Program-made: the position numbers and the translations under genes
Origin: a virus
IMG/VR virus record: IMGVR_UViG_3300024273_001986
Coordinates: 1-37,426 of that record
Length of the DNA stretch: 37,426 nt
Direction: 5' to 3' (one strand)
Notes under the pieces: model-generated
What the model was told of the DNA's origin: nothing
Seen by the model: the letters and a program-made list of their open reading frames with translations, nothing else
Database searches by the model: none
Shown: one piece after another, positions 7,120 through 34,376 of the stretch
Numbering within the stretch: the stretch's first letter is position 1
How the letters are laid out: every line of letters begins with the position of its first letter

Positions 7120-7467
7120 ATGAAAATTAATAAAGAAATTATTAGGCAACTTATAAGAGAGTCTTACGAAGAAATGGCGGCACAAGAAGAGGTTAAAGCT
7201 TCAGAGAGCATATTTGACAGTAAGCCTGGTGAAACTGTAATACTGAACTTTGAAGGGGTAACTGTAAAGATGGAAAGACAGTTAGATGATTTATTTAAAA
7301 TAGTAGATGCTGCAGAAAGCGAAAAACTTAAAGATGGTGACTATGTAAAGATTCAAGGAAATGACAGCCTTACTACAGGTAAAAGCTTTAAGTTCTTGAT
7401 ATATAGAGAGACTCCTCTAAAATATGAAACTAACCCATTAGAGAGTTGGAAGATTATTAAAAATTAA
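7120..7467 (+). CDS. Hypothetical protein with N-terminal amphipathic tag
   Basis: 115 residues. The N-terminal helix MKINKEIIRQLIRESYEEM has the I-x-x-L-I-R-E form common at the N-terminus of small T4-like phage proteins from marine metagenomes (recalled, unverified). Residues 30-115 look like a small beta-rich domain (GETVILNFEGVTVKM, DGDYVKIQGNDS). No family recognised. Convergent with the next minus gene, with a 4-nt TTAA overlap of the two stops. Confidence 0.7.
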   Translation: MKINKEIIRQLIRESYEEMAAQEEVKASESIFDSKPGETVILNFEGVTVKMERQLDDLFKIVDAAESEKLKDGDYVKIQGNDSLTTGKSFKFLIYRETPLKYETNPLESWKIIKN

Positions 7468-7736
7468 TTTCCAAATCTATTCCACCAATCTAATCTAACT
7501 AAATTCTTGTATATTGATAGTGGCTGTAGAGTTATGCCTATAGTAAAGCCATAAGATGCTATGAATCCCATTATTGCAGGATACAATGGCATTCCATAAT
7601 TATATTCCTCTATAAGAAGAGGTGTAATATAACACGATTGAATTACACCAATTATAGTTAATAACACTTTTAGCTTGCCTCTTTTATGTTCTGTAAATAG
7701 CCACTTGAAGTATGTGGGATTTTTTTTGTTTTTCAT
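7464..7736 (-). CDS. Small membrane protein (two helices)
   Basis: 90 residues with a basic N-terminus (MKNKKNPTYFKW...KRGK) and two hydrophobic segments: about 25-42 (VLLTIIGVIQSCYITPLLI) and 50-70 (LYPAIMGFIASYGFTIGITL). Topology suits a holin or spanin-like accessory of the lysis genes upstream, but no signature decides it. Confidence 0.65.
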   Translation of the reverse strand: MKNKKNPTYFKWLFTEHKRGKLKVLLTIIGVIQSCYITPLLIEEYNYGMPLYPAIMGFIASYGFTIGITLQPLSIYKNLVRLDWWNRFGN

Positions 7737-7763
7737 TTTTATAAATTTTTATTAAATAAAATA

Positions 7764-7786
7764 CCCATCAACATAATGTTGATGGG
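7764..7786 (-). terminator. Hairpin between two minus-strand genes, probable terminator
   Basis: CCCATCAAC/GTTGATGGG, 9-bp perfect stem with 5-nt loop (ATAAT on plus). On the minus strand it follows the gene ending at 7814 and is followed by TATTTTATTT. The run of T is interrupted, so termination may be partial. Confidence 0.5.
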
Positions 7787-7813
7787 TCAATAGTTTTCAG
7801 TAAATTAAAAAGT

Positions 7814-8086
7814 CTATTTCTTCTTTGGGGCAGCCTTTTTTGTTGCAGGTTTCTTAGCTGCAAGTTTCTTAGTTGCAGGTTTCTTAGTTGCAGGTTTTTT
7901 TGCAATTGGCTTCACCTCTTCTGATACAACCATCGATTTCAATGATTTTACTAAAGAATTAAGAGCCCAACCTAAGGCTATACCTGCATATAGTTTGTAG
8001 CCATAAATTAAAAGTGCTACACCTAACAATCCAGTTGCAGCTATGTCAATCCACCAAGATTTCAAAATTGTAATAATTGTTTTCAT
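7814..8086 (-). CDS. Membrane protein with histone H1-like Lys/Ala/Pro tail
   Basis: 90 residues. Residues 1-50 hold one or two hydrophobic helices (IDIAATGLLGVALLIYGYKLYAGIALGWAL). Residues 58-90 are a low-complexity tail of repeated KKPATKKPATKK-like units ending AAPKKK, very similar to histone H1 or HU-tail repeats. A short linker (SMVVSEEVKPIA) separates them. It may be a holin-like protein with a strongly basic cytoplasmic tail, or a membrane tether for DNA. The tail is also visible as imperfect 15-21 nt repeats at the DNA level. Confidence 0.7.
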   Translation of the reverse strand: MKTIITILKSWWIDIAATGLLGVALLIYGYKLYAGIALGWALNSLVKSLKSMVVSEEVKPIAKKPATKKPATKKLAAKKPATKKAAPKKK

Positions 8087-8836: not shown

Positions 8837-9046
8837 CTAAATGTTATTTACCCAAAAACTCTTCTTTTCCCAGAAAAACTTATATTGCTTTATCATCATC
8901 TTTTTAACAATGTCTCTAACATCTTCTTTATTTAAAATGTTAGCGTTATTTAAAGCTCTTTCCATTTCAGATTTAACAATTTTCTTAACCTCCGTTTTAG
9001 TTAGGGGTTTGTTGGTAGATTCCGATATTACATAAAAGTCTTTCAT
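8837..9046 (-). CDS. Small hypothetical protein
   Basis: 69 residues, basic and helical. LTKTEVKKIVKSEMERAL (about 16-33) is an amphipathic segment similar to tags on other small proteins here. An ATATTTAT motif on the minus strand (9059-9052) lies 5 nt upstream of the start, so any transcript from it would be nearly leaderless, or the true start is downstream. First gene of the small operon that runs to 7814. Confidence 0.6.
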   Translation of the reverse strand: MKDFYVISESTNKPLTKTEVKKIVKSEMERALNNANILNKEDVRDIVKKMMIKQYKFFWEKKSFWVNNI

Positions 9047-9080
9047 ATATAATAAATATGAACTAAAAATTAACTATTGA

Positions 9081-10052
9081 CTAAAGATTTTTCAGCATGT
9101 CTACTAAACGTGGACAGGGATACATATCATATTTGTCTTTTCTGACGCTTGTGTGGCTCCACAACCCTTTCACTCTTCCATGATATGCATCGGCATTAAA
9201 TTCAAATGCATCCTTAGGGTCAACTCCATCTTTTAAAAGTTGTGGTATACCTGCTTTTATATCTATTTTCGGATAAATCCTTGCAACGTGCTTAATCAAA
9301 AGTCTTAGAGATTCAATTTGTTCTGGCGTGTATGCGTGCCAGTATTGATGTCCTCTAAATTTATAGCCTAAATCACAAACCATACTTTCGGGCACTTCCA
9401 CATTTACATAGTTATAATACTTGTCCCCCTTTTTAACTGCATAACCAAAATTGTTAACCTCGACTGCAGAAGAGTACTTTGACATATTAAAATTACCCAC
9501 TTTACCTAAGTGCCAACCTATGTAATCGTCTGGGAAGCATTCTACAACTTCTCCATTGTATTTATCATCTCCGTATTTTCCTTTTTTTATGCTCACTCCT
9601 CCAATGCAGTATTGAGTCGCAACCCTACCTCTTTCATCTCTATTCCATGAGTTTATAGTGTTATAAGGGTTGTTCCATCCTGCTGTGTGATGTATAAAAA
9701 AGTTTTCTGGCTCTATTTTACCATAAGTTCTTACATATTCGTCAGAGTCTAAATAAGCTCTATCAATCTCTAAGCCATCCTCTGTTGTATAAGAGCCTAG
9801 ATATTCTAACTTATTATCCTTATCGTTTGACTCGTCATAACCAAACCTATCAGTATCTGCATCTAAATTTTCTCCTATTAATTTTTTATAAGTTTTAGGA
9901 CCAACAATGCCATCCGCTGTCAAGCCTTTGGAGTTTTGATATTTTTTAACAGCTGCCTCCGTATATGCGCCAAATATTCCATCAGCTTTTAAGCCTAAAG
10001 CTTTTTGTATTTCTTTTACCTCATTTCCTTTGCTACCTTTTTTTATTATCAT
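9081..10052 (-). CDS. Endolysin: peptidoglycan-binding domain plus N-acetylmuramoyl-L-alanine amidase
   Basis: 323 residues. Residues 1-58 are a PG_binding_1 domain (KGSKGNEVKEIQKALG, KADGIFGAYTEAAVKKYQ, GLTADGIVGPKTYKKL). A linker of about 45 residues leads to an amidase_2/PGRP-type catalytic domain from about 115: FFIHHTAGW (zinc ligand H121 or H122), GWHLG near 179-183, FRGHQYWHAYTPEQIESL, and the second zinc site LWSHTSVRKDKYDMYPCPR (H300, C313). It cleaves the amide bond between MurNAc and the peptide stem for host lysis. No signal peptide, so export would need a holin; small membrane proteins at 7464-8086 and 87-299 are candidates. It follows the gene at 10054 by 1 nt. Confidence 0.93.
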   Translation of the reverse strand: MIIKKGSKGNEVKEIQKALGLKADGIFGAYTEAAVKKYQNSKGLTADGIVGPKTYKKLIGENLDADTDRFGYDESNDKDNKLEYLGSYTTEDGLEIDRAYLDSDEYVRTYGKIEPENFFIHHTAGWNNPYNTINSWNRDERGRVATQYCIGGVSIKKGKYGDDKYNGEVVECFPDDYIGWHLGKVGNFNMSKYSSAVEVNNFGYAVKKGDKYYNYVNVEVPESMVCDLGYKFRGHQYWHAYTPEQIESLRLLIKHVARIYPKIDIKAGIPQLLKDGVDPKDAFEFNADAYHGRVKGLWSHTSVRKDKYDMYPCPRLVDMLKNL

Positions 10053-10053
10053 T

Positions 10054-10482
10054 TTATCTTAAATTTTCATTTACACTAATAACACCACACATTCTTTTTA
10101 ACTTATCCTTGTATCCTTCAAAAATCTTACCTTCAGAAATCATTGATGAATCGCACTTAATAATAAATTCAGATAATTCTTGTGCAAACTCTTCTAAATG
10201 ATTTTTCTTAAAATCTTCAATAAAGTCATAATCGTTTACACTTTCAGAAAGTTCATTAATAAACACAATTCCTTCAGCACCATTTACACAACTAAAAGAA
10301 GCTTCGTTTAATTTTTTGTTTTTATTTTTAGTAACATTAAAGTTTATTGTACCTTCACTTATATGTCCTGACAATAAATAATTATCATCATAAAAAATAT
10401 CTTTATATGACATTTCAACATTCACAAAAGGCTTATCTTTTATTAGTTTAGTATTTATTTTATATGAAGATTTTGACATCAT
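10054..10482 (-). CDS. Hypothetical protein with C-terminal YxxxLKxMxG motif
   Basis: 142 residues. Beta-rich N-terminal half (TKLIKDKPFVNVEMSYKDIF, GTINFNVTKN), helical middle, and C-terminus EGYKDKLKRMCGVISVNENLR, which carries the same short motif as the proteins ending at 8097 and starting at 11882, 12262 and 15544. Start is ATG 10482 or 10479 (tandem ATGATG), overlapping the upstream stop. No family recognised. Confidence 0.7.
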   Translation of the reverse strand: MMSKSSYKINTKLIKDKPFVNVEMSYKDIFYDDNYLLSGHISEGTINFNVTKNKNKKLNEASFSCVNGAEGIVFINELSESVNDYDFIEDFKKNHLEEFAQELSEFIIKCDSSMISEGKIFEGYKDKLKRMCGVISVNENLR

Positions 10483-11198
10483 TTTTCCAGAGTTAATTTA
10501 TAAACTTTTCCGTCTATTTTCACTTTGTTTTTAGCTACTATTTCTGCTTTTTTAACATTCTTACTTTCCATTATCAAACCACCTTTAGCTTTTGAAAGTT
10601 CCATTATTACGTTTTTAATCATATCCTTTGAAACCTTTTTTGCAACTTCTGTTATTTTATCAGTAAGCTCCGCATCAGTAAGTTGAGTTTCTGTTATGGG
10701 TTGAGAAAAAGTCTGTTGAGGTTGAGCAAAGTGAGAGCCTTGATTTACTTCACCCTGCTTTTCTTCAAGTCTCTGCTTTAGTCTACTTCTAATGTCTACA
10801 TTTTGTGGGCCAAAATCTGAAACATCCGAAGATACACTTGTTTGACTTGTTGGTAAAGAACCTCCTCCGTACATCATATTTTCTAACATAGATGCTTCTG
10901 AATTAGACTTTGGAGTAAAGCTGCTAAGTGCTGGTGCATCTTTTGTTTTCTCGTTTGGATTTTTACCTACCTTAGGAACTGGTATACTTGCTGGCATTGA
11001 CGATGTCTTTTCAGACTTCTCTATGAACTGCTGAAAGTTATTTTTTAAAGAACCGTTTCTTATTTGTTCCATTTTTGAAGCCATTTCAGGATTTCTAGAT
11101 ACTACTCCTGGGTTGGTCATAGGAGTTACGGGTTTTGGTATTCCCATTTCTGCAAACCTTTGTTGCATTTCTTTTTTTGTATTTCCTTTATTACTCAT
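10479..11198 (-). CDS. Hypothetical protein, largely disordered
   Basis: 239 residues rich in Ser, Pro, Lys, Gln and Met. The N-terminus MSNKGNTKKEMQQRFAEMG is basic, and residues 60-170 are low complexity (PASIPVPKVG, SQTSVSSDVSDFG). The ordered C-terminus has a helix (ELTDKITEVAKKVSKDMIKNV) and a short beta pair (KNKVKIDGKVYKLTLEK). Such layouts occur in phage head-associated or scaffolding proteins, but that is only a guess. It overlaps the upstream gene by 8 nt. Confidence 0.68.
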   Translation of the reverse strand: MSNKGNTKKEMQQRFAEMGIPKPVTPMTNPGVVSRNPEMASKMEQIRNGSLKNNFQQFIEKSEKTSSMPASIPVPKVGKNPNEKTKDAPALSSFTPKSNSEASMLENMMYGGGSLPTSQTSVSSDVSDFGPQNVDIRSRLKQRLEEKQGEVNQGSHFAQPQQTFSQPITETQLTDAELTDKITEVAKKVSKDMIKNVIMELSKAKGGLIMESKNVKKAEIVAKNKVKIDGKVYKLTLEK

Positions 11199-11529
11199 AT
11201 TCTTCTTCTTTTATCATAGTAACACCTCGTACTATCCAGTCATAAATAGTCTTAATCTTATTATTTTGTATTAAATTTTCAAATAATTCAATTTCTTCTT
11301 CATACATTTCAGCCCTAACAGTCAGCACATTGCCTATCCTTCCATATTTTCTAAATTTTATTTTAGAATTTATGGATTCAAACATAATTTCCTTAAATTC
11401 AATATAGCTTTGCTGTTCTAGTTCTTGATAAGTAACTGCGAAGCCATAAAATTCTTCAAATTCATTCATTGAGCCTTTATATGCTAAATCTATTAAAACA
11501 TTTTTGGTATCTTTTCTATTTGCTTTCAT
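11191..11529 (-). CDS. Hypothetical protein
   Basis: 112 residues, soluble and acidic, alpha/beta (NVLTVRAEMYEEEIELFENLI). Ends in EEEYE. Overlaps the genes on both sides (14 nt upstream, 8 nt downstream), so it is tightly coupled in the 11806-9081 operon that ends with the endolysin. No family recognised. Confidence 0.68.
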   Translation of the reverse strand: MKANRKDTKNVLIDLAYKGSMNEFEEFYGFAVTYQELEQQSYIEFKEIMFESINSKIKFRKYGRIGNVLTVRAEMYEEEIELFENLIQNNKIKTIYDWIVRGVTMIKEEEYE

Positions 11530-11806
11530 ATAAAAATATTTCTACTTTTTCTTCATTCTTGTCCCACCAAGCGTAAAATTTGGGGTATATATTTATTTCG
11601 TTTATAAAAAAATTTTTTATTTCTTTTTCTATGTTTATTTTTTGAAATCTTGATTCTAAACCTTTTTTTGCCTCTATGATAACTTGGTCATTAGTGCTTA
11701 TGTTTGTCAGCTCTTTTTGAGAGCTGGAGAAGTCTCTTTTTAACCATTTTTTTATTTCATATGAAAAATGTTTTTGATTTTTAATTATCTGACTCCTTGT
11801 GTGCAT
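11516..11806 (-). CDS. Hypothetical protein, first gene of endolysin operon
   Basis: 96 residues, basic and helical, with a C-terminal beta/aromatic stretch (IYPKFYAWWDKNEEKVEIFLYES). No motif recognised. Starts at ATG 11806, downstream of the dyad at 11840-11870 shared with the divergent gene at 11882. Confidence 0.66.
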   Translation of the reverse strand: MHTRSQIIKNQKHFSYEIKKWLKRDFSSSQKELTNISTNDQVIIEAKKGLESRFQKINIEKEIKNFFINEINIYPKFYAWWDKNEEKVEIFLYESK

Positions 11807-11839
11807 TATGAAAACAATTTAACTTAAGAATGATAAAAG

Positions 11840-11870
11840 TAAAGTTTATTGATATTTATAATAAACTTTA
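11840..11870. promoter_or_regulatory. Inverted repeat around an ATATTTAT motif in a divergent promoter
   Basis: Perfect 11-bp arms TAAAGTTTATT (11840-11850) and AATAAACTTTA (11860-11870) flank a 9-nt spacer GATATTTAT (11851-11859) that contains the recurrent motif. It lies between minus gene 11806 and plus gene 11882 and is a good candidate operator or promoter. Confidence 0.5.
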
Positions 11871-11881
11871 GTTTAAATAGT

Positions 11882-12259
11882 ATGAATTTATCCGAATCTT
11901 ACATAGAAAGAATAAAGCTTCTATCTGGTGTGTTGTCCGAATCTGTTAGCATGTCTCAATACAATTATCAAATTAGAGACATTGGAGGTGATGTGTTTTA
12001 TAAAAAATTAAAAGATGATGAATGTTGGCAATTTACTAGTGAATTAGATTTTTGCAAAAACTCAAATAAAGACAATGTCATTGACTGGGTTAAACCAGAG
12101 GCAAATGATAAATATAAAGTAAAACAGGTAGAGATAAAACAAGACTTAAACTATCAGAAACATCCCATGGAAACATATAAAAGATATTTAGAAAATATAT
12201 GCCCCCCAGACTTTAAGGTAGAGATTGTTGGAAATCATATTAAAGTATCAAAAGACTAG
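11882..12259 (+). CDS. Hypothetical protein with N-terminal ESYIxRxKxLSG motif
   Basis: 125 residues from ATG 11882 (MNLSESYIERIKLLSGVLSES); an ATG at 11849 would start inside the dyad. The first 21 residues match the N-termini of the genes at 12262 and 15544, while the remainder (about 35-125) is unrelated and of unknown fold (GGDVFYKKLKDDECWQF, NHIKVSKD). VLSE/S resembles a phage prohead protease site (small-x-E), which is inference. It ends 2 nt before the next gene. Confidence 0.72.
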   Translation: MNLSESYIERIKLLSGVLSESVSMSQYNYQIRDIGGDVFYKKLKDDECWQFTSELDFCKNSNKDNVIDWVKPEANDKYKVKQVEIKQDLNYQKHPMETYKRYLENICPPDFKVEIVGNHIKVSKD

Positions 12260-12261
12260 AC

Positions 12262-12843
12262 ATGTTGTTAAGCGAAGAATATAAAAATAGAATAAAAAAA
12301 CTTTCAGGCATGATAGTGTGTGACAATTGCTATCACAGTTGGAATAAAGACAAAGGTGACAAGGACCCCAATTTATGTCATGTTTGTGGATTTGACTCGG
12401 AAAAAGATGAGTTTAGAGTAGAAGCCCTTAAAGATTGGTTAGTTGACAAATATGGAAGCCTAAAAGAGGCTTGGAGTAAAAAGTACAAGGATTCTATAAA
12501 TTGCAATAACCCAAAAGGATTTAGTCAGAAAGCTCATTGTAAATCAAAATCAGTTCAAGAAAATGTAGGCCCAGGCCCAAAAGACACAATGACGGCTTCT
12601 GATATTTATATGGATATGTTTAATCAAATGTTTGTATCTAATGATTTCAAGAAAAAATATGACCCAGAAGATGGAGAGTTTTGGTTTGATTCAGATTTTG
12701 ATATGATAAATCAAAAAAACTATTCAGACAAAGAGGATGAATTGGCAGATGAGGGAGATTTGGATAAAGAGGAAGTTAAAAGTATTGATAAAAAATACCA
12801 AAAAATGAAAAGAGCTTATAATTGGAAGAATTTTAAAAATTAA
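12262..12843 (+). CDS. Zinc-ribbon-like protein with N-terminal EYKxRIKKLSG motif and a PKGFSQKAHC module
   Basis: 193 residues. Residues 1-18 (MLLSEEYKNRIKKLSGMI) match the 11882 and 15544 N-termini. Next is a four-Cys zinc-ribbon-like segment, CDNC (about 20-23) and CHVC (about 39-42). Then comes CNNPKGFSQKAHCKSKS near residue 80, a short Cys-Cys module I recall from many marine T4-like phage proteins. The C-terminal 90 residues are acidic, ending with a Lys-rich tail (KYQKMKRAYNWKNFKN). Probably virion- or head-associated. The stop overlaps the convergent nuclease gene by 4 nt (TTAA). Confidence 0.75.
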   Translation: MLLSEEYKNRIKKLSGMIVCDNCYHSWNKDKGDKDPNLCHVCGFDSEKDEFRVEALKDWLVDKYGSLKEAWSKKYKDSINCNNPKGFSQKAHCKSKSVQENVGPGPKDTMTASDIYMDMFNQMFVSNDFKKKYDPEDGEFWFDSDFDMINQKNYSDKEDELADEGDLDKEEVKSIDKKYQKMKRAYNWKNFKN

Positions 12844-13691
12844 ATTGAATCTAAATCTATCTTTTGATTAACACTGCTATTACAAAGTTGATAACTATCT
12901 TTAAAGGGACAATATTTACAAGATTCTTTTCTTTTTTCTAACTTTGCTTTTTTAAACAATTTTTTTATAAAAATATCCCTAGTTGTTTTTGCTAAATCAT
13001 CTAAAGTTTCTTCCATCAATTCTTCAGATGTATCTATTTCAACATTTTGAATGTAACCATTACCTTCTATGCCTTTTAATTTCCTTCTACTTAAAACAAC
13101 ATATTTACACTCTATGTCTGATAGGTTTATTTTCTTTTTTGTTGCATAAAAATATTTATAAAATATCATTTGAGATAAAAAAGTTTTATCTTTATTTTTG
13201 GACTCTAAATCCCAAGGGTAGGTAGAAGTCTTCCAGTCTATAATTGTATACTTCCCAGTTTTTTTGTGCTTTAAAACTAAGTCTATAAAGCCTACAAAAT
13301 AATAATCTTTATACATAGGTTCTATAATCATTTCTTCTGAGCCTATGAATATATATTTTTCAGAAAGTCTTTCCGTAGGTATTAGTTTTAATATATCTAT
13401 ACCTTGTATTGTGAATTCTTCTAGCCTATTAAAGTCGGGGTAATCTTTCATATTATCCATAACCAACTTTTTAAACATGTACGTAAAGTTATTTATGCGC
13501 TCTTCTTCGTTTAATTTATACTCTACACCTTTCCTTAGAGAATCGTGAATAGCATCCCCAAAGTAGGCATATATAGATGGAATAAAATCAGGAGCTTTTA
13601 TTATGTTTTCCAAATAGTATCTATGACCACATTCTTTATATCTTGAATATTTGGAATAGCTTATTTTTATGTTTTTATATTCTGATGACAT
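12840..13691 (-). CDS. PD-(D/E)XK nuclease with Fe-S cluster, Cas4/RecB-like
   Basis: 283 residues from ATG 13691; an upstream ATG at 13709 adds six residues. The layout is that of Cas4/RecB-type nucleases: SYSKYSRYKECGHRYYL with C21, FGDAIHDSL with H49, FVGFIDLVL with D137, YTIIDWKTS with D152 and K154 (the D-x-K of the catalytic motif), and three Cys at the end in CKYCPFKDSYQLC (C258, C261, C270). These with C21 can bind a 4Fe-4S cluster. Such nucleases act on DNA ends in recombination or repair. No cas genes or CRISPR array are nearby. On the minus strand TATAAATACTTTG (13719-13707) lies just upstream. Confidence 0.88.
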   Translation of the reverse strand: MSSEYKNIKISYSKYSRYKECGHRYYLENIIKAPDFIPSIYAYFGDAIHDSLRKGVEYKLNEEERINNFTYMFKKLVMDNMKDYPDFNRLEEFTIQGIDILKLIPTERLSEKYIFIGSEEMIIEPMYKDYYFVGFIDLVLKHKKTGKYTIIDWKTSTYPWDLESKNKDKTFLSQMIFYKYFYATKKKINLSDIECKYVVLSRRKLKGIEGNGYIQNVEIDTSEELMEETLDDLAKTTRDIFIKKLFKKAKLEKRKESCKYCPFKDSYQLCNSSVNQKIDLDSI

Positions 13692-13759
13692 TATGATGCA
13701 ATATACCAAAGTATTTATAAAATTCCAACTATTTATCTAATAGCTTATACACATAATAA

Positions 13760-14380
13760 ATGAGAAGATTTATATCAGAAATATTAGAAACAGAACTTAT
13801 GGAAGTTATGATTCTTAAAGAGCATAAAGAAGATGTTAGTGATGGCTTGCGTTACCACATAGACAAAGGTATAAGTGTTCACAACTCTATATATAGATAT
13901 ACTTCAGAAAATCATATAAGCTTAATAAATGAAGTTAAGTCATTATATGCAAAGAACTCTATTGTACTTTGCGAAAATGATGAAAGTATAATCAAAAGTG
14001 ATGCTGGTATGCTGGGTGATTTTGAAGGCGATTTAGTTCTTTTAGATTTACCATTTGAAGAAAGAGAGCCTGGCTTAGATGAGGCTACTTATAAGGGCAA
14101 AGAAGTAGAGTTAAACAAACCCAAAAGGGGAGGGAGTAAGAAATTTTACGTGTTCGTAAAAAATTCCGACACTGGTAAGGTGATAAAGGTTTCATTCGGC
14201 GCAAAAGATGGGGGGGGTAAATTGGCAGTTAAACTCAAAGACCCTGATGCTAGAAAAAGGTTTGCAGATAGACACAACTGTGAAAGCAAGAATGATAAAA
14301 CAAAACCAGGATACTGGTCATGTAGGCTTCCTAGATATGCAAAAATGTTAGGATTGAGCGGACAGGGAAAGTGGTGGTAG
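13760..14380 (+). CDS. Hypothetical protein with RHNC/GYWSCRLPRYAK module
   Basis: 206 residues. The N-terminal tag is MRRFISEILETELMEVM. Residues 100-190 include YKGKEVELNKPKRGGSKKF, a beta-rich stretch (YVFVKNSDTGKVIKVSFG) and KRFADRHNCES...GYWSCRLPRYAKMLGL, a short Cys/Arg module I recall in many marine T4-like phage proteins, usually next to head or structural genes. Ends GQGKWW. The gene contains a run of eight G at 14210-14217 (Gly codons), rare in this AT-rich genome. A CTATTTAT motif is at 13729-13736. Confidence 0.75.
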   Translation: MRRFISEILETELMEVMILKEHKEDVSDGLRYHIDKGISVHNSIYRYTSENHISLINEVKSLYAKNSIVLCENDESIIKSDAGMLGDFEGDLVLLDLPFEEREPGLDEATYKGKEVELNKPKRGGSKKFYVFVKNSDTGKVIKVSFGAKDGGGKLAVKLKDPDARKRFADRHNCESKNDKTKPGYWSCRLPRYAKMLGLSGQGKWW

Positions 14381-14398
14381 ACAAGATTAATTGATGTG

Positions 14399-15541
14399 AT
14401 GGACGATATTAATAAAAACAAAAAACAAAATTTACCATTTAAAGAAAAGGTAGATGGAGATTTTGTTGTTAGAAAATTTTCTGACCTATTGAAAGAAGGT
14501 GAGCTTGTTTGGCATAGAGATATAGAGGATAGAATAATATTCCCCTTACACGAAAGTGATTGGAAAATACAAATAGACAACGAAATTCCACAACCTCTAA
14601 ATGTTGATAATCCTGTATTTATAAAGTCAGAACAATTTCACAGGCTAATAAAAGGAACTGGTGAATTAGAGGTTAAAGTTTATAAAAGCAAATTACCTAA
14701 TGATAAAACTGTTTTACAAAAAATAATATCAGAAACATTAGAATTGTTTCTAGAAAAAAGAGGTGCTGACTCTGAAACAAAAAAGGGAAGAAAGGTACCT
14801 GGGAAATATTTGACATCTAAATCTAAAAGCAAAAGGTCTCAAATGAAAAAGGAGATAGATAAATTTGCTAACAAAAAATCTTCTGACCCAAAAGCTTATA
14901 CTAAGCAATGGAAAGCTGACAAAGGTGAGTACACAGAAAAAAGTGACGCGACTTTAGCTTATAAAAAAATGTACGGAGAGACTTTTGAGGTTTTAAAAGA
15001 TAAAAAAAATAAATTATCTCAATCCTTTAAAAAGTTTAAAGAAATAGCATTAAGAGAAAAAAGAGAAACTATACAAGCGTTTAAAATATGCAAAAAAATA
15101 CTCGCGAAAAAAGATGTATCCAAAGAAGAGGTGCATTTTTTAAAAGAGCAATCTAAAGATTTAGCGAAAATAGTTGGAGTTATGGCTATGGGCTCAATTT
15201 CAATGGCTATACCAATTGCTCTAGAAGGCATTTTAAACAAAAAGTATGGCATATCAATAATGCCAAAGAGTCAAGAAGGTTTGAGTGAATCCAAAAGTAA
15301 CGACAAAGGGTTAAAGAAAAAGTCAAAAGATTCTAGCATACCTTATTATATATTAAAGCAAGTTTATAACAGGGGAATGGCTGCTTGGAGAACAGGTCAC
15401 AGACCTGGTGTTGCTCAAAATCAGTGGGCTATGGGAAGAGTTAATAGTTTTATAACAGGTTCGGGCGGTGCTAGAAAGGCAGATGCTGATTTGTGGTCTA
15501 AAGCCAAAAAGGCTAAAGCAAAGAAAAAAAGTAAGAAGTAA
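14399..15541 (+). CDS. Basic multi-module protein, putative head/virion associated
   Basis: 380 residues from ATG 14399; a GTG at 14396 is also possible. Residues 1-95 form a compact domain (WHRDIEDRIIFPLHESDWKI). A tag-like helix VLQKIISETLELFLEKRG is near 105-122. A Lys/Ser-rich segment, KKGRKVPGKYLTSKSKS, leads to a basic helical region ending YKKMYGETF. A hydrophobic stretch (IVGVMAMGSISMAIPIALEGIL, about 259-280) could insert in a membrane. The C-terminus VYNRGMAAWRTGH...QWAMGRVNSF...KADADLWSKA has a signature I know from marine phage and large-virus proteins of unknown function. Poly-basic tail. May be injected with DNA, a speculation. Starts 18 nt after the 13760 gene. Confidence 0.72.
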   Translation: MDDINKNKKQNLPFKEKVDGDFVVRKFSDLLKEGELVWHRDIEDRIIFPLHESDWKIQIDNEIPQPLNVDNPVFIKSEQFHRLIKGTGELEVKVYKSKLPNDKTVLQKIISETLELFLEKRGADSETKKGRKVPGKYLTSKSKSKRSQMKKEIDKFANKKSSDPKAYTKQWKADKGEYTEKSDATLAYKKMYGETFEVLKDKKNKLSQSFKKFKEIALREKRETIQAFKICKKILAKKDVSKEEVHFLKEQSKDLAKIVGVMAMGSISMAIPIALEGILNKKYGISIMPKSQEGLSESKSNDKGLKKKSKDSSIPYYILKQVYNRGMAAWRTGHRPGVAQNQWAMGRVNSFITGSGGARKADADLWSKAKKAKAKKKSKK

Positions 15542-15543
15542 TT

Positions 15544-16137
15544 ATGTTATCCGAGTCTTACATAAAAAGAAATAAAGAGTTAGCTGGTATTTTGGTACAA
15601 GAAAGTGCTGAAGACTTTTCTGCAAGCAACACTAGAGTCCCATTCAGTACAGACTTAATGACACAAGCGATACTTCAAGGTAGAGAGGTTGGGATACTAT
15701 ATAAAGGCGATGACATGATAGCTCAATCTGGTAAATATAGAGTTATATATCCTGTGGCAATGGGCATGTCTAAGGCGGGGAATCGTGTCATAAGAGCAGT
15801 ACACAAGGTGGGTCAGTCAGAATCAGAAGCTGGTAAAACGAGCGTCAGAAGTGCTGAGGCTAAAAACGTGTGGCGACTTTTTAAAGCTAGTAACATTAGG
15901 GGCATGTGGTTTACGGGTGACTTTTTTAATTTCAATCCTAAAAGCTATAACCCAAACGATAGGGGTATGAGTACTGTAGAGGTTAGTTTCAGTCTGACTA
16001 AGGCACAAAAGTTCCAACAAGAGTTCGTCACAAAACAGGAGGAAGCAAATGAGCTCAGGTCTAAAGTTAGAAGGTTTAAAGAAGCTGGGGCTCGTGATTT
16101 AGAGCAACCCTATAAAGACCCAGAAACTAGAATTTAA
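15544..16137 (+). CDS. WYL-like domain protein with N-terminal ESYIxRxKxLAG motif
   Basis: 197 residues. The N-terminus MLSESYIKRNKELAGILVQES matches those at 11882 and 12262. Residues 38-135 resemble a WYL-type ligand or nucleic-acid binding domain: AILQGREVGILYKG, GKYRVIYPVAMGMSKAGNRV, IRAVHKVG, VWRLFKASNIRGMWF. There is no HTH domain. The C-terminal 50 residues are a charged helix. WYL domains often regulate transcription, but here fusion to the shared tag suggests a virion or delivered protein. Moderately sure of WYL. The stop overlaps the Mre11-Rad50 gene by 4 nt. Confidence 0.68.
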   Translation: MLSESYIKRNKELAGILVQESAEDFSASNTRVPFSTDLMTQAILQGREVGILYKGDDMIAQSGKYRVIYPVAMGMSKAGNRVIRAVHKVGQSESEAGKTSVRSAEAKNVWRLFKASNIRGMWFTGDFFNFNPKSYNPNDRGMSTVEVSFSLTKAQKFQQEFVTKQEEANELRSKVRRFKEAGARDLEQPYKDPETRI

Positions 16138-19100
16138 GCAGAAACTTCTTTAGGAACACTTTTAGAAACAATATTATTTCTATTATTTACATCAAACACA
16201 GATATTCCTGCCATAGGGTTTTCTTTTATTTGTTCATCAGTTAAAGTTGACCTATTTTTAGTTACTTGAATTATGTTGTCAACAAAGTCTTTAATTTCAT
16301 TTTTATGAGTTATAATCCAAGTGTTTTTGTACTTACCTTTTAAGTAATAAAATACAGACTGCATAGCTATAGTTAAATCGTTATCTAGAGCACCAAACCC
16401 CTCATCTATAATGCACAGTGATGGCTTAGTTAATGAGCTTACAAAGTGAAGGGAGTCTCTTATTGCTACACTTCCTATGAATTTTTGTGCACCTGAAGCC
16501 ATAGTCATTGGTAAGGCATCTTTTTCAATGGAGTTAAAATAAAACAACTCCTTAATGTCACCATTCTTTTTTATAGTCATTTCCATCTTAAAGTCAACTA
16601 AGTTTTTCAAAATAGAATTTATTTTGTAATTAATTACAGGCAACTTTTGTCTTATTATTCTTGCAGGAATTCCGTCTCTATGTACTGCCTGTAAGTATAT
16701 AGCATATTTACTGAAAGAAGACTCTGCTTTTTTTATAGTTCCTATCTTTTCTTCTAAATTTTCTTTATTGTTCTGGGATAGTTTTAAGTCTGATTTAATT
16801 GAAGTCAATTTATCATTAAGTTGATTTATGATTAATCTTAAAGATTTTTTCTCATCTTCATTTAGCTTGATTTCTAAATTTATATTTTCATTAATTTTCA
16901 ATGAACTCTTATTAGATTCTAATATAGAAATATCTTTCTCTATTTTTTCAATCTTTGTTTTTAAATTTAGTATTTCACTTTTTGCTGTATTTAATGAAGT
17001 GTTTTTAGATTCCACTAAACTATTGTGTTTATTTATTTCAGAAATCTTTTGAGATAACTCTAAGACACTTTTTAAATCATCTATTTTAACTTTATTTTCT
17101 TTTAAAGAATTTTTTAAAGAACCAATTTTGTTTTCTTGTTTTCCAAAATGTATATTATGATTACTTATATCTTTAGACTTTTTTATTTCAGACTTTTTAT
17201 CTGTTATAAACTTTATGCCTCTCTCAATTTTCTGTGTACAATCATTTTGCAAATCCACATCAGCTTTCTGTTCAACATTTCCGCATGTAGGACACTTCTT
17301 CCCCTTAGAAACCTCTAATTTATCATTAAGCTTTATTAGGGCAGACTCTGCTTTCAAAATGCCTTCTTTTATAGGCTCTACATCTATTTCTTTCTGTAAA
17401 GGATTGTTTTTTACCCATTCATTAAGGGATTTGAATTCATTTTTTTCAGTTTCAAACTTTTTTCTACAAAGCTTAAGATTATCATTAATTATATCAACAC
17501 TTGATGTAGATTCTTTAGGGACTTCTTTTTTAAAATTAGAAGACACCCAATCAATTAACTCAGATTCTGTTGACGTATTAGTAGATAGTTGTATTTTCAG
17601 TTTTTCAATAGCACTTTTTGCAGAATTAATATCTTTATAGTTTGTGGGCTCTACTTTTATTAAAGTTTTCGTCAATTCTAATATTTTAGAATCCTGAACC
17701 TCCACCAACTTATCAGTATCTAACTTTTCTTGCTTGTACTTTTTTAATAATTTATTATTTTCAACTATAAACACTTCTTCTTTAGCAATGGATTCTTTAT
17801 GCTCTTTTGAGCTGCCTAGATATTTTTGTTTTGACTTTATGTCGTTGAATATCTTTTTTGCATAATCATACCTATCTCTAAAAACTTCAAGACCTAGGTA
17901 TTTGTTTATCAAATCATTTTTAGGTTGCTGACTCATATCTAAAAAATTTCCCTCACCACCTTGGGCTTGTAATACTATTTTTGTAAAATCATCAAACTTT
18001 CCTATAGACTCTATAATAATATTATTTCTCTCAGTTTTTTCAGTAGCAGATTTGTCAGAGTCTATTGATTTCCAAACCTTTTTCCCCTCAGCATTTTCTT
18101 TTAACACCTTATATTCAACTCCATAAGAAACATCGGGGGTACCATCTTTTTTAGTCCTAACCTTTACAGTTCTCTCTATATAAAACTTCTGAGAATCAAT
18201 AGTTAGATAAACACGACCACCAGCCTTATCGCTTTCTGTATACATGTTTGTTAATCTATGAGCCTCTCCTCCTCCCAATATTTTTCTATAAGCAATCCAA
18301 ACAAGGGCTCTAATTAAATTAGTTTTTCCTTTAAAATTTTTTCCAAAAATACCAGTAACCCCAGACATTTCATTAAAATTAAAAACAGTTTTTTGTTCTG
18401 GGAAGCTGAAAAGATTCCAAACTTCAATTCCATCTAGGAACCATTTTTTACCCTTTTCTGAAGAGTGATTTAGTTCTTTATCTATTTTTCTAGAAAGTTC
18501 TAAAACCTCTTCTTCATTATCATATTCACTATTTTCCACAAAATCTTTCAATAAAGACTCAAACTCATCTACATTAGTATAGTCTTTTTCTTCCTCAATT
18601 GATATTCCGTCTATCTCTTCCTGCTTACTTACTTGTTTAAAGTTAACGTTTATAACTTCACAGCCATACTTACTCTTTATTAACTTTTCTATCTGCTTCT
18701 CCTTCTCTACTGAATAATCTTCTTCAAAAGCCTCCCAAGTAACTGAAACTTTTGTTTTTTTAGGATTATTAGAAAGAGTCAAGCTGTCCACCCTTTCTTC
18801 AAAAAGCTCTCCTTTGGATATGTGTAAGCTAGAAAAGCCATAATCATTAGGTATAAACTTTCTTGAGAAAGTCTTCTTTTTTAAATCCCAAACAATGTAA
18901 CCCTTGTCAATAGTCTCTCCATAATCCTGTTGTATTAAACTTCCAGGGTATGCTATATTTTCTGTTGCTGATATTTTTAAGGAAAATGATTGATGCTCAT
19001 GTATATCTCCCAACATTACAATGTCAAAATTATTAAATGTGCTGAGCTTCATCATATATTCGCTATCGTGTAGCTCATAGCCATTATTGCCCCTTGAACC

Positions 19101-25760: not shown

Positions 25761-25941
25761 TTTCTATTTACTCTTTTTAAGAATTTTTTATAATATAACT
25801 TTAAAAGTTTTAAAGTAAACTTTTGATTTGTTTAGTTTAAAAAATATTTCATTCCTATAGGAATAAATATTATAGTAAAAAAAAATAGAAATAATTTCTA
25901 TAAGTTTTTTTGACTAAATATTTATTATTAAAGAATTTTAC
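25761..25941. promoter_or_regulatory. Divergent promoter region of the two structural operons
   Basis: 181 nt of very AT-rich sequence. It holds a 19-nt palindrome with arms ACTTTAAAA/TTTTAAAGT around a G (25798-25816), and a second dyad with core ATTCCTATAGGAAT (25851-25864) flanked by AATATTT and AAATATT (25843-25871). On the plus strand ATATTTATTATTA starts at 25918, 16 nt before ATG 25942. On the minus strand ATATTTATTCCTA (25870-25858) sits in the second dyad. Confidence 0.55.
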
Positions 25942-28521
25942 ATGACATCAATAGATAGTGGTACAACTTTAGACATAAAACCAACTCCTGGTAGAGACAC
26001 TAGATTCGCTGCAACTAGTGCAGAATCTGTATTTACGTTTGGAACTTTTAATATTGATAGCAGTCCGTCTAATGAAAAGTTCACTGAGTCAGTAAGTGCT
26101 TCTACGCTTTCATTTGGGCCTTACGAAACTATAGAAAATTCAAAAAGTGCTGATTTTGATGTTTTAAAAATTATAACCACAAAATCAAATGAATTAAATT
26201 TAAACCCAGAAGACGCTAATAGTTACGCATATTTTGGCTCCTTTTACACTAAAGTGGCTAATGCAATAAATAATGTAGTAGACAATTTTCCATACGCACT
26301 ACTATCTAAATCCATAAGCAGTGGAGTAACTATATATGATTATTCTCATGATTTGGTAGCTCAAACTTCCTTGTTTAAAATTTCACTTTCTTCTATAACT
26401 AATCAAGGAGATGTTATATATGTATCAGGTAGGTCTGAACAATCTGAATCTCAAATAGATTTATATAATGACACAAGCTCTTTTGCCATACAATTAAGTG
26501 GAGATTCACAAAGTACGACTACTGGAAATACGTTTATGAATGATATTCATGAAATAATCTCATACGATTACTTATATAATCAATATTTAGAATTTAAAAT
26601 CAAGGGAATATTATTGCCGACAGAACCATCTTCTGCCATTACATTTAATTACCCAATATACATAAGACCAACCAGACAAAGACTGGGGCAATTTAAAAGA
26701 ACTTTACCCAACTTAGAGAATCAATTAATTTATGATGGTAACTTCTTGGTTCCCGAGCCTGAAACAGACACTTATGAAAGGGTTCAATTTGATTGGCCTA
26801 GGACTATTGATGGATTCTCTCCAGATAGCTATGGAAGTGGGTTTGAATCCTATGCAAATAACATACTATCTAATGCTAGAGTTATTGACGAGGAAAAGAC
26901 AAATATAATGCTCAGGACTATGATTCCTGAAAATTTTACCGACCTAGACTCTCAAGATAAAATATACAGAAAATTAACAACAGTTTATAGTGAGCAATTT
27001 GATTCCATAAAACAATATATAGATGGTATGGCTTATGCTCATTCTGTTAGTTATGATGGTTCAGAAAGTGTTCCAAATAAGTTTTTGTCTAGGTTGGCAG
27101 ATATGTTAGGGGCAAAACTTCCAAATGCATTTAATGCAGAAAATGTTATAGATTATTTAGCTGGTGAATTTGATTCAACTGGTAAAGCTTTTGAAGAATA
27201 TAATCTAGAGATTTGGAGAAGAATGATGGTAAATATAGTTTGGCTTTACAAAAATAGAGGAACTAGAGATGCTGTCAGTTTTGTATTTAAATTAATAGGG
27301 GCACCCAAATGTCTATTTAACTTAGAAGAATTTGTATATGATGTACAGCAAGTAAAAAGAGAGTTTGATTTAAATTTGGACACTGTAGATGATGATATAA
27401 CACCTTTAGAGAGCGACCTATTCATTCCAGAAAATCCAGATGACCCAGAAACATTTATACCTGCCAACTTATTTGAAGACTTAAGTTCGGAAGATTTGCA
27501 AGATGCAAAACCTTTAGATGAAAATGGCAATCTTTTAATTAATGATGGATACCCAGATGTAAATTCTCAGATTTTTCAAATTGGAGGCTCAGGTAGGGGT
27601 AATGGAAGCGATTTTATTGACGGATTAGGCAGTGAATATGAACCATTTAAAAGAGTTGATAATTTAAAAATAAAAACAGGTAGCACAAGAAGTATTGTAA
27701 ATAGCAAAGAAGTAAACGTAGACTTAAGGCCGTCAAGAGCTATAGAGTGTGATGTTATGGATTGGTATGAATTTGGTTATGGATGGTGGAAATGGGGCTC
27801 TTCCTCTTCTGTATTCTCTGGGTTGACGGTTCCTTTTGAGTGGCAAGTTGAAGATATAAATACAGTTGTGCCAGACAATTTAACTGGTATGACTATATAT
27901 GAATGGTTAGACTATATATACCAAAACAATGTAGACCCCAGAAATAGAAAGACAAGTGGTTGGCAAAATGGAACAACAGGTACTTACAGGGATTTAAAGA
28001 AAATATATGTAACATACATGTTGTGGACTAACAATCAAGAATCTAATAGGCTAACATTTAGAAAGTTAGAGAAGTTCTTGACGCTTCTAGAAAGAAATTT
28101 CCAAGATTTAGTACCTTTCTTAGTGCCATCTACAAGCATACTGTCTTCATATGGTACTGTATATGGAAATACAGCATTTAATAGACATAGATTTGTATAT
28201 AGACCAGGTATAAATGATGGCTCTGAGTTTAAGGTGGAAATACCACCCGTATTTGAGCCCGTTATACAAGCTTCTGATTTCACTGTTAATGTATCAAATA
28301 GATTTGACCCAACAATAACATCCAATTACTTTTATGCTGATGTTTCTAATAAAGCTGAAGGTAATGTTGACATTTCAGATTTTCAAATTAAATTAGTTGA
28401 AACGGTAAATTTAAATACAAATTTAGCAAACACAAACACTAATATATATGAAGAAGACACTATTTCATCTGACTATGAGGTGGAAATTAATGACTTAACT
28501 CCAATAACTTACCCAGATTGA
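25942..28521 (+). CDS. Baseplate/tail protein (P2 gpI-like segment)
   Basis: 859 residues, first gene in the plus structural block. Residues 345-450 have the features of tail protein I or baseplate wedge proteins: KIYRKLTTVYSEQFDSIKQY, FLSRLADMLGAKLPNAF, EIWRRMMVNIVWLYKNRGTR, AVSFVFKLIGAP. The N-terminal third is beta-rich. The C-terminus contains polar repeats (NLNTNLANTNTNIYEED). A baseplate component anchoring fibres is the likely role; the exact T4 equivalent is not clear. 1 nt separates it from the next gene. Confidence 0.75.
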   Translation: MTSIDSGTTLDIKPTPGRDTRFAATSAESVFTFGTFNIDSSPSNEKFTESVSASTLSFGPYETIENSKSADFDVLKIITTKSNELNLNPEDANSYAYFGSFYTKVANAINNVVDNFPYALLSKSISSGVTIYDYSHDLVAQTSLFKISLSSITNQGDVIYVSGRSEQSESQIDLYNDTSSFAIQLSGDSQSTTTGNTFMNDIHEIISYDYLYNQYLEFKIKGILLPTEPSSAITFNYPIYIRPTRQRLGQFKRTLPNLENQLIYDGNFLVPEPETDTYERVQFDWPRTIDGFSPDSYGSGFESYANNILSNARVIDEEKTNIMLRTMIPENFTDLDSQDKIYRKLTTVYSEQFDSIKQYIDGMAYAHSVSYDGSESVPNKFLSRLADMLGAKLPNAFNAENVIDYLAGEFDSTGKAFEEYNLEIWRRMMVNIVWLYKNRGTRDAVSFVFKLIGAPKCLFNLEEFVYDVQQVKREFDLNLDTVDDDITPLESDLFIPENPDDPETFIPANLFEDLSSEDLQDAKPLDENGNLLINDGYPDVNSQIFQIGGSGRGNGSDFIDGLGSEYEPFKRVDNLKIKTGSTRSIVNSKEVNVDLRPSRAIECDVMDWYEFGYGWWKWGSSSSVFSGLTVPFEWQVEDINTVVPDNLTGMTIYEWLDYIYQNNVDPRNRKTSGWQNGTTGTYRDLKKIYVTYMLWTNNQESNRLTFRKLEKFLTLLERNFQDLVPFLVPSTSILSSYGTVYGNTAFNRHRFVYRPGINDGSEFKVEIPPVFEPVIQASDFTVNVSNRFDPTITSNYFYADVSNKAEGNVDISDFQIKLVETVNLNTNLANTNTNIYEEDTISSDYEVEINDLTPITYPD

Positions 28522-33612: not shown

Positions 33613-33662
33613 AAATTAACAATAATTTATAAATAATTACTATTTATTATTAAAAGTAAATT

Positions 33663-34376
33663 ATGCCAGCACTTATAACACATAACGGCAAAAGTGTAAT
33701 AAATAGCAATCCCTACATCACCCCAATGGACGTTGGGGCATATAGTGTTTTCAATAATATGTTTCAACTAAACAATCTTCCTTCAGAAAGAAGAAAGTCT
33801 GGGATGTTGGCATACATATTAGAGACTAATGATTTTTTTGTGTTAAAAAATTCAAATTGGGAATTTACAATAAATGACTGGCAACCCCTTTCCATACAAC
33901 ATAGAGATGATAAACTTTTTTATGACAGAGAAATTCCAAACGGATTAACCGATGGTATGAATACCAATTTTGAATTGTCTCAAGAGCCAAAAATAGGCTC
34001 TGAACATGTTTATTTAAACGGTTTATTGCAAGACCCTGGGGTGGGGTATGACTATATCATAATTGATAATTTAATAACTTTTAATTACCCTCCCTTTCTA
34101 GGCTCTACCGTTAGATGCTCCTATAGAATGGTGGACACTATATCTCCAGAACTAAATATATCTGACAAGGAAATACCTTCTGGTGTGGCTGATGGTATTA
34201 ATAAAGAGTTTATTGTACAAAATTATCCTGAATTAAATTCTGAACATGTTTATTTAAACGGTTTATTACAAGATGAAAGTCAAATGGCTGACTATGTGAT
34301 GGTTGAAAATAAAATTATATTTAACTACCCGCCTATGAAAAGTTCAAGAATAAAATGTACCTATAGATTTTTCTAA
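33663..34376 (+). CDS. Structural protein with two tandem EHVYLNGLLQ repeats
   Basis: 237 residues. Residues 1-80 form a unique N-terminal domain. Two homologous 75-residue modules follow, each EIPxGxxDGxNxxF then SEHVYLNGLLQD, YxxxxNxIxFNYPP and CxYR at the end. The DNA also repeats: TCTGAACATGTTTATTT occurs in both modules (33998 and 34228). Phage tail proteins often carry this module. It follows fibre paralog 4 and a CTATTTATTATTA motif (33640-33652) 11 nt before ATG. Confidence 0.76.
   Translation: MPALITHNGKSVINSNPYITPMDVGAYSVFNNMFQLNNLPSERRKSGMLAYILETNDFFVLKNSNWEFTINDWQPLSIQHRDDKLFYDREIPNGLTDGMNTNFELSQEPKIGSEHVYLNGLLQDPGVGYDYIIIDNLITFNYPPFLGSTVRCSYRMVDTISPELNISDKEIPSGVADGINKEFIVQNYPELNSEHVYLNGLLQDESQMADYVMVENKIIFNYPPMKSSRIKCTYRFF

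Follow-up and report, generated by a model that had tools for sequence, protein, structure and literature searches.

A predicted late-class promoter element inside an inverted repeat between divergent phage genes, and a gp55-like sigma factor as its candidate reader

The window analyzed here is the whole stretch of DNA in IMG/VR virus record IMGVR_UViG_3300024273_001986 (37,426 nt). Two divergent genes in it are separated by a 75-bp gap, from the ATG at 11806 (minus strand) to the ATG at 11882 (plus strand), and this gap holds an inverted repeat. For the plus gene, the listed open reading frame begins with a TTG (11849), but relatives conserve the start at 11882. Neither protein has a Pfam match above cut-off or a PHROGs match at 0.001, and megablast of window positions 9000-18000 against named phages gave no match. 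The features of the locus, and sites of the same class elsewhere in the window, are as follows.

11516..11806, minus strand: divergent gene, 96 aa
11814..11821, minus strand: invariant block in the minus leader, ACAATTTA (TAAATTGT on the minus strand), 14/14 loci
11834..11841, minus strand: weak candidate for a -7 box of the minus gene, TACTTTTA (in G001-G003 TACTTTTG), with no TTG at -33
11835..11848, no strand: invariant block AAAAGTAAAGTTTA of putative function, of which 9 bp lie in the left arm and 5 bp outside it, 14/14 loci
11840..11870, no strand: inverted repeat, arms 11840-11850 and 11860-11870 with perfect 11-bp complementarity, 9-nt spacer
11852..11859, plus strand: ATATTTAT, putative late-class -10-like element of the plus gene; 11852-11860 invariant in 14/14 loci
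11864..11865, plus strand: predicted transcription start, at the AA of motif offset 12-13, within the invariant TAAA (11862-11865)
11873..11881, plus strand: invariant plus leader TTAAATAGT, directly before the start codon, 14/14 loci
11882..12259, plus strand: gene behind the putative late-class promoter, 125 aa
13729..13736, plus strand: same late class, CTATTTAT, before the gene at 13760
25918..25925, plus strand: same late class, before an 859-aa gene at 25942, conserved in 5/5 genomes aligned
33640..33647, plus strand: same late class, before the gene at 33663, which has weak virion-protein PHROGs matches

The preliminary description reported an 11-bp inverted repeat with a motif in its spacer, and the repeat is present exactly as claimed: TAAAGTTTATT, GATATTTAT and AATAAACTTTA form arm, spacer and arm, in a single occurrence in the window. 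Perfect repeats with arms of ≥11 bp and loops of ≤20 nt number 2 in the window against a mean of 0.73 in 60 Markov shuffles. Arm length alone is therefore unremarkable and was rejected as evidence by itself, so that the repeat needs conservation to be of interest. A 12-bp perfect inverted repeat with a 1-nt loop, acccatcaacatAatgttgatgggt, lies at 7763-7787, between the minus-strand ORFs 7464-7736 and 7814-8086.

Conservation was assessed over 14 orthologous loci (the window and 13 relatives), which comprise 8 distinct intergenic sequences. Protein searches with the two flanking genes, which made no use of the motif, recovered 11 of the 13 relatives; single-sequence searches with the minus gene confirmed no relatives, and an alignment search yielded 8 loci. 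L061 and L062 came from a scan for the left arm plus spacer (17 stretches, 13 of them this same locus) and are no test of motif conservation, since the search pattern contains the motif. The remaining four stretches (L055, L056, L059 and L060) were dropped because their flanks look unrelated, and a partial match of the plus protein in L003 (30% over 43 residues) was judged non-orthologous from its surroundings. When viral contigs were scanned for AAAGTTTATT-N9-AATAAACTTT, seven records were returned, all seven at the reported locus.

Five segments are invariant in all 14 loci (11814-11821, 11835-11848, 11852-11860, 11862-11865 and 11873-11881), and the start codon of the plus gene varies among ATG, GTG and TTG. 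Positions 11833-11917 form an 85-bp run identical to a relative with 80.8% identity over 10.5 kb; this is the second longest such run against that relative, the longest being 97 bp at 9211-9307. At third positions of conserved codons the window and its relatives share 64-79% identity, and the dyad is identical at 30 or 31 of 31 positions in the lineages that have it. A search for the dyad in related phages, proposed in the preliminary description as a check, gives a divided answer: the region is conserved, but the arms are perfect in only 5 of the 8 distinct sequences (8 of the 14 loci), and conservation of both half-sites, as expected of a dyad operator, extends no further than these five. 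Perfect arms occur in the window and in the lineages G011/G006, G004, G005 and G001-G003. They are absent from G007/G008, G009/G010/L062 and L061, all three of which retain the spacer motif, the 9 bp immediately preceding the plus start codon and, of the left arm, 9 bp of 11 together with 5 bp beyond it. Measured from G001, the dyad-less G007 (minus protein 68% and plus protein 60% identical) is about as close as G011 (69% and 59%), which has the dyad. A stretch of 84 bp at 11230-11313, within coding region, is identical to L002; it contains a minus-strand CTATTTAT (11249-11242) that precedes the gene at 11198.

Among all 8-mers upstream of the 526 genes called in five contigs, the window and four related ones, the spacer element ATATTTAT is the one most in excess, with 98 occurrences against 9.4 expected (mechanical gene calls, expectation from whole-contig frequencies). 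Together with its invariance in 14/14 loci, this bears out the earlier suggestion that the spacer contains a promoter element. The form [AC]TATTTAT occurs 93 times at -65 to -16, against 9.6 expected and 27 antisense; the reversed-sequence control is also high (57), but what it counts, TATTTAT[AC], overlaps with the motif. By contig, the sense, antisense and expected counts are 8/4/0.7 (window), 48/7/4.6 (G001), 18/5/1.5 (G007), 8/6/1.4 (G005) and 12/6/1.3 (G009); the pooled counts are not independent, because the five contigs share orthologs and the gene calls are mechanical. Antisense counts are not negligible in G005 (6 versus 8 sense), G009 (6 versus 12) and a further genome, G014 (5 versus 10). 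An EM motif model drifted to poly-T and was dropped, and exact 8-mer counts were used.

Alignment of 96 sites gives the consensus [AC]TATTTATwwwwAA, in which the strongest other columns are the A's at offsets 12-13 (0.29 and 0.49 bits). There is no -35 box: upstream columns of the 96 sites all carry ≤0.22 bits, and the TTG spacing has no peak for this class. The motif at 11852 lies 30 nt before the start codon, and the median for the class is 29. It is directional, ATATTTAT reading toward the plus gene at 11882, which runs counter to the proposal that one promoter element serves both genes. For 27 of the 526 genes called, window 31740 and 2898 among them, no more than 9-14 nt separate the motif from the start codon; either their transcripts would have next to no leader, or their starts are misplaced, as at least one call in G007 is. 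A second divergent gap in the window, 25761-25941, contains a conserved block, TTAAAGTAAACTTTT, that is similar to the left arm, and the late motif is present there as well, in 5/5 genomes; the 859-aa protein encoded beyond it had no match in the phage collection.

The label 'late' rests on the genes downstream of the motif. The 38 of 93 such genes that were scanned (the longer ones, with near-duplicates left out) matched 37 PHROGs families, the best 25 of which include terminase, portal, tail sheath, baseplate hub, tail fibre and PhoH. Genes behind a second element, TAnnTTTG, are of another kind: scanning 26 of 36 gave 35 families, with primase, ribonucleotide reductase, methyltransferases and a sigma factor among the best 25. 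The spacing from TTG to TAnnTTTG peaks at 19 and 20 nt (9 and 13 cases; antisense, 7 and 2). These phages thus use, before replication genes, boxes like those of the Bacteroidetes sigma-A promoter (-33 TTTG or TTG, -7 TAnnTTTG), whereas the spacer motif has neither the -33 box nor the TAnnTTTG pattern. Shine-Dalgarno cores are rare, at 13 of 526 upstream regions. The TAnnTTTG class and the scarcity of these cores point to a Bacteroidota host, a reading of both that passages of PMC6847099 support.

Flavobacterium phage immuto (Immutovirus, NC_055915) is distant from the window family (primase 30% identical), and has in common with it the late motif and a homologous sigma-like protein, gp118. 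Upstream of 225 annotated plus-strand starts (150 kb) in immuto the motif occurs 22 times against 2.1 expected, with 0 antisense, and stands before TerL, the gp20 portal, sheath, tube, hub, PhoH and others; the count for TTG-N19/20-TAnnTTTG is 0 (0.26 expected). The top 8-mer of immuto is another element, not the late motif. An over-represented upstream element in immuto (L068, L070 and L071), GTATATTTAGGTATCAAT, was read by eye from overlapping 8-mers and is possibly an earlier promoter class. The words 'promoter' and 'immuto' are absent from the main text of PMC7077304, on Baltic Flavobacterium phages, and among the matches listed in the open PMC literature we found no description of the motif as a phage late promoter.

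ATATTTAT is likewise the top 8-mer in the distant genome G012 (41.5% GC; 18 sense, 1 antisense, 1.7 expected) and in Mel-JY01 (17, 1 and 3.0), and the signal is weaker in G014 (10 sense and 5 antisense against 1.9 expected). No motif sites occur in the 50 kb of pT24 examined (0.6 expected) or in 194 upstreams of LR756508 (150 of 484 kb; 0.55 expected). Short loci around distant homologs of the sigma-like protein (74 loci, 340 upstreams) contain 6 sites against 4.3 expected and 4 antisense, a count judged uninformative because of packed operons, and whole contigs were used instead. Mel-JY01 (PP395634), recorded from Microcystis, carries the late motif, the sigma-like protein and the closest named relative, at 26.5%, of the SbcC-like protein of the window; whether Microcystis is really its host may merit a check.

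Late transcription in T4 uses the sigma factor gp55 with gp33 and the clamp gp45, and the T4 late box is TATAAATA. This box is present exactly on the minus strand at 11860-11853, where it would form a T4-type late promoter toward the minus gene, and it occurs 25 times in sense against 6.8 expected. It is, however, mostly an antisense sequence (49 versus 25 in the five contigs, 14 versus 3 in immuto, 12 versus 0 in G012 and 12 versus 1 in Mel-JY01), an excess expected of the reverse complement of the real motif, and a promoter of T4 polarity for the minus gene was rejected as highly improbable.

We consider the best explanation of the locus as a whole, with a probability of roughly 75%, to be that the spacer motif is a late-class -10-like element driving the plus gene at 11882 and read by a gp55-like factor. 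The assignment of a late-class promoter to this gene follows from the over-representation of the motif, the virion genes downstream of it and its use in immuto and two distant genomes. If the element lies at -12 to -5, the span given for the flavobacterial -7 box in passages of PMC9723704, the A's at offset 12-13 become the predicted start point. RNA beginning at 11864/11865 would lack the left arm, its leader, of about 17 nt, would contain no Shine-Dalgarno sequence, and a minus transcript beginning near 11829 would lack the full dyad; judged by these predicted starts, the dyad would act, if at all, as DNA. The perfect complementarity of the arms could suggest a hairpin in the leader RNA, but neither transcript would hold both arms, and the pairing is not kept, as the right arm changes in 3 of the 8 distinct sequences while the left hardly does. 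We therefore rejected the hairpin, which seems barely credible.

That 3 of the 8 distinct sequences keep the motif without a perfect dyad speaks against the dyad itself as the operative element. Its right arm is in part the AATAAA that often comes after the late element, the dyad is perfect in some lineages only, and the inverted repeat around the motif appears to be a lineage-specific extra of putative use. Arms of ≥11 bp are centred on 2 of the 96 late-type sites in five contigs (0.0008 per site in a shuffled-flank control), both at the reported locus, once in the window and once in G001; the dyad is present in the G005 ortholog too, which was missed in this count, its start being called further upstream. 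An operator, with a dimeric phage regulator on both arms blocking or recruiting polymerase at the spacer promoter, would need a stronger left half-site and right half-sites that are degenerate in some lineages. Such a reading gains from the invariance of the left block, from the absence of arms >9 bp at any other of the 96 sites, and from the agreement of the right arm at 11/11 positions between the window and G001, where third positions agree at 64% (about 0.7% by chance if sites are independent). It loses from the three sequences that lack the right arm and from the presence of AATAAA, 6 of the 11 bp of that arm, after the motif at several immuto promoters as well; conservation of the remaining CTTTA is unremarkable (about 11%). 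Moreover, the left block plus motif, with up to 3 mismatches, was found only at the reported locus in 11 related records. A regulator that binds the dyad is hypothetical, and we consider it unlikely. A 13-mer of the left block alone has one further exact copy, at G007 L042:1987.

The left arm may be under a second constraint common to the orthologs, although the signs of it are weak, from either an overlapping minus-gene promoter or a bound regulator; for the invariance of the left block, a host-type minus promoter and a regulator half-site are equally possible. Under the former, the two promoters would stand back to back, the minus gene being read by the host sigma from TACTTTT[AG] (minus strand, 11841-11834), and the upstream spacer of the minus box would hold the plus late element, so that late polymerase would shut off the minus gene. 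TACTTTT is invariant on the minus strand in 14/14 loci, and G001-G003 have an exact TAnnTTTG; a TTG-N19/20-TACTTTTG site also precedes another gene (G007 L042:10401). TACTTTT[AG] occurs upstream of genes 11 times against 4.3 expected and 7 antisense, some of these being the reported locus itself. Set against this, no TTG stands at the N19/20 spacing from the box, TTA-N20-TAnnTTTA is not enriched (12 sense versus 11 antisense), and the final G of the box is A outside G001-G003. A minus-gene promoter at 11834-11841 is thus a weakly supported candidate, and we treat the back-to-back arrangement as tentative, leaning against it.

The late-class element driving the plus gene resembles the T4 late promoter in consisting of one -10-like element without a conserved -35, in having an AT-rich downstream region and in standing before late structural genes, virion genes having been found behind it in the five contigs and in immuto. 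The flavobacterial-phage box [AC]TATTTAT differs from TATAAATA, being the T4 box as read from the opposite strand. The likeness extends to the candidate reader, a sigma-like protein whose gene lies elsewhere in these genomes and whose domain 2, as predicted, matches T4 gp55. A T4 gp55 profile matched immuto gp118 weakly (E 0.008, at a cut-off of E 1 that also let through 7 of 14 control genomes), and another search gave E 0.5 for the gp55 sequence match. Alignment of the protein with gp55 by hhalign was colinear but weak, at E 5.9e-5 and probability 65, then E 5.1e-4 and probability 31 with a larger alignment. The gp55 families phrog_234 and phrog_12791 had no match in the seven related records searched, a result that does not show absence, since control genomes gave no match (T4 itself matched later). 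Homologs of gp118 are encoded in G001, G002, G005, Mel-JY01 and LR756508; the sigma-like protein was found in 3 of 12 related contigs, most of them fragments, and a scan of viral contigs yielded at least 545 stretches encoding relatives.

Structure prediction gives the sigma-like protein (mean pLDDT 72) a sigma-2 fold. The best of 550 compared chains is T4 gp55 (7d7c_F; Z 10.9, 2.3 A over 101 residues), and the best 50 rows are all sigma or RNA-polymerase holoenzyme entries by title, with the caveat that helical folds reach middling Z by chance. Foldseek gave no match at E 0.001 or better, and 48 of its best 50 rows are sigma or RNA-polymerase entries by title. From this fold match, a phage late sigma whose domain 2 is gp55-like is the most likely factor to recognize the motif. 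LR756508, which has the sigma-like protein and lacks the motif in the part examined, argues against a simple pairing of protein and motif. Two adjacent RpoD-like sigmas in G001 (L030 17223-18089 and 18184-19047; 288 and 287 aa, 44% identical to each other), which we take to be short like Bacteroidota RpoD, could be alternative readers; Sigma70_r4 matched only G001 among 8 records.

The sigma-like protein carries an extra C-terminal helical domain (residues 200-294, 95 residues) that folded alone with a mean pLDDT of 84. Its best structural match is the sigma 3mzy (Z 7.5, rmsd 3.4 A, 75 residues), and the first 16 rows comprise 8 sigmas and 6 signal-recognition-particle M domains. No sigma is among its best 50 Foldseek rows, and its best match among PDB sequences (E 0.15) is not a sigma. 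Given the signal-recognition-particle matches and the Foldseek result, a sigma-4-like identity is suggestive only. If it holds, the protein would carry in one chain what in T4 is supplied by a separate protein, gp33, and would bear on the open question of why T4 splits its late sigma; passages of a 2010 review (PMC2988020) ask why no fused late sigma exists. The wider proposal, that a large phage group reads its late genes from a T4-like box of reversed polarity by means of a late sigma in which gp55-like and sigma-4/gp33-like parts are fused, is speculative and in our view doubtful.

Under the preferred reading, of a late-class element read by a gp55-like sigma, an isolated palindrome would become a start signal that can be read in a group of phages, most of them uncultured, late genes could be called from sequence by the motif, and an unannotated protein with at least 545 relatives in viral contigs would be named as their likely late sigma. 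The question is directly testable, because a cultured phage with both motif and protein exists. The plus-gene protein (11882-12259) and its neighbour (12262-12843) share an N-terminal tag, LSExYxxRIxxLSG, followed by unrelated sequence; the tag is present in 13 of 532 called genes in five contigs and may be a targeting or processing signal.
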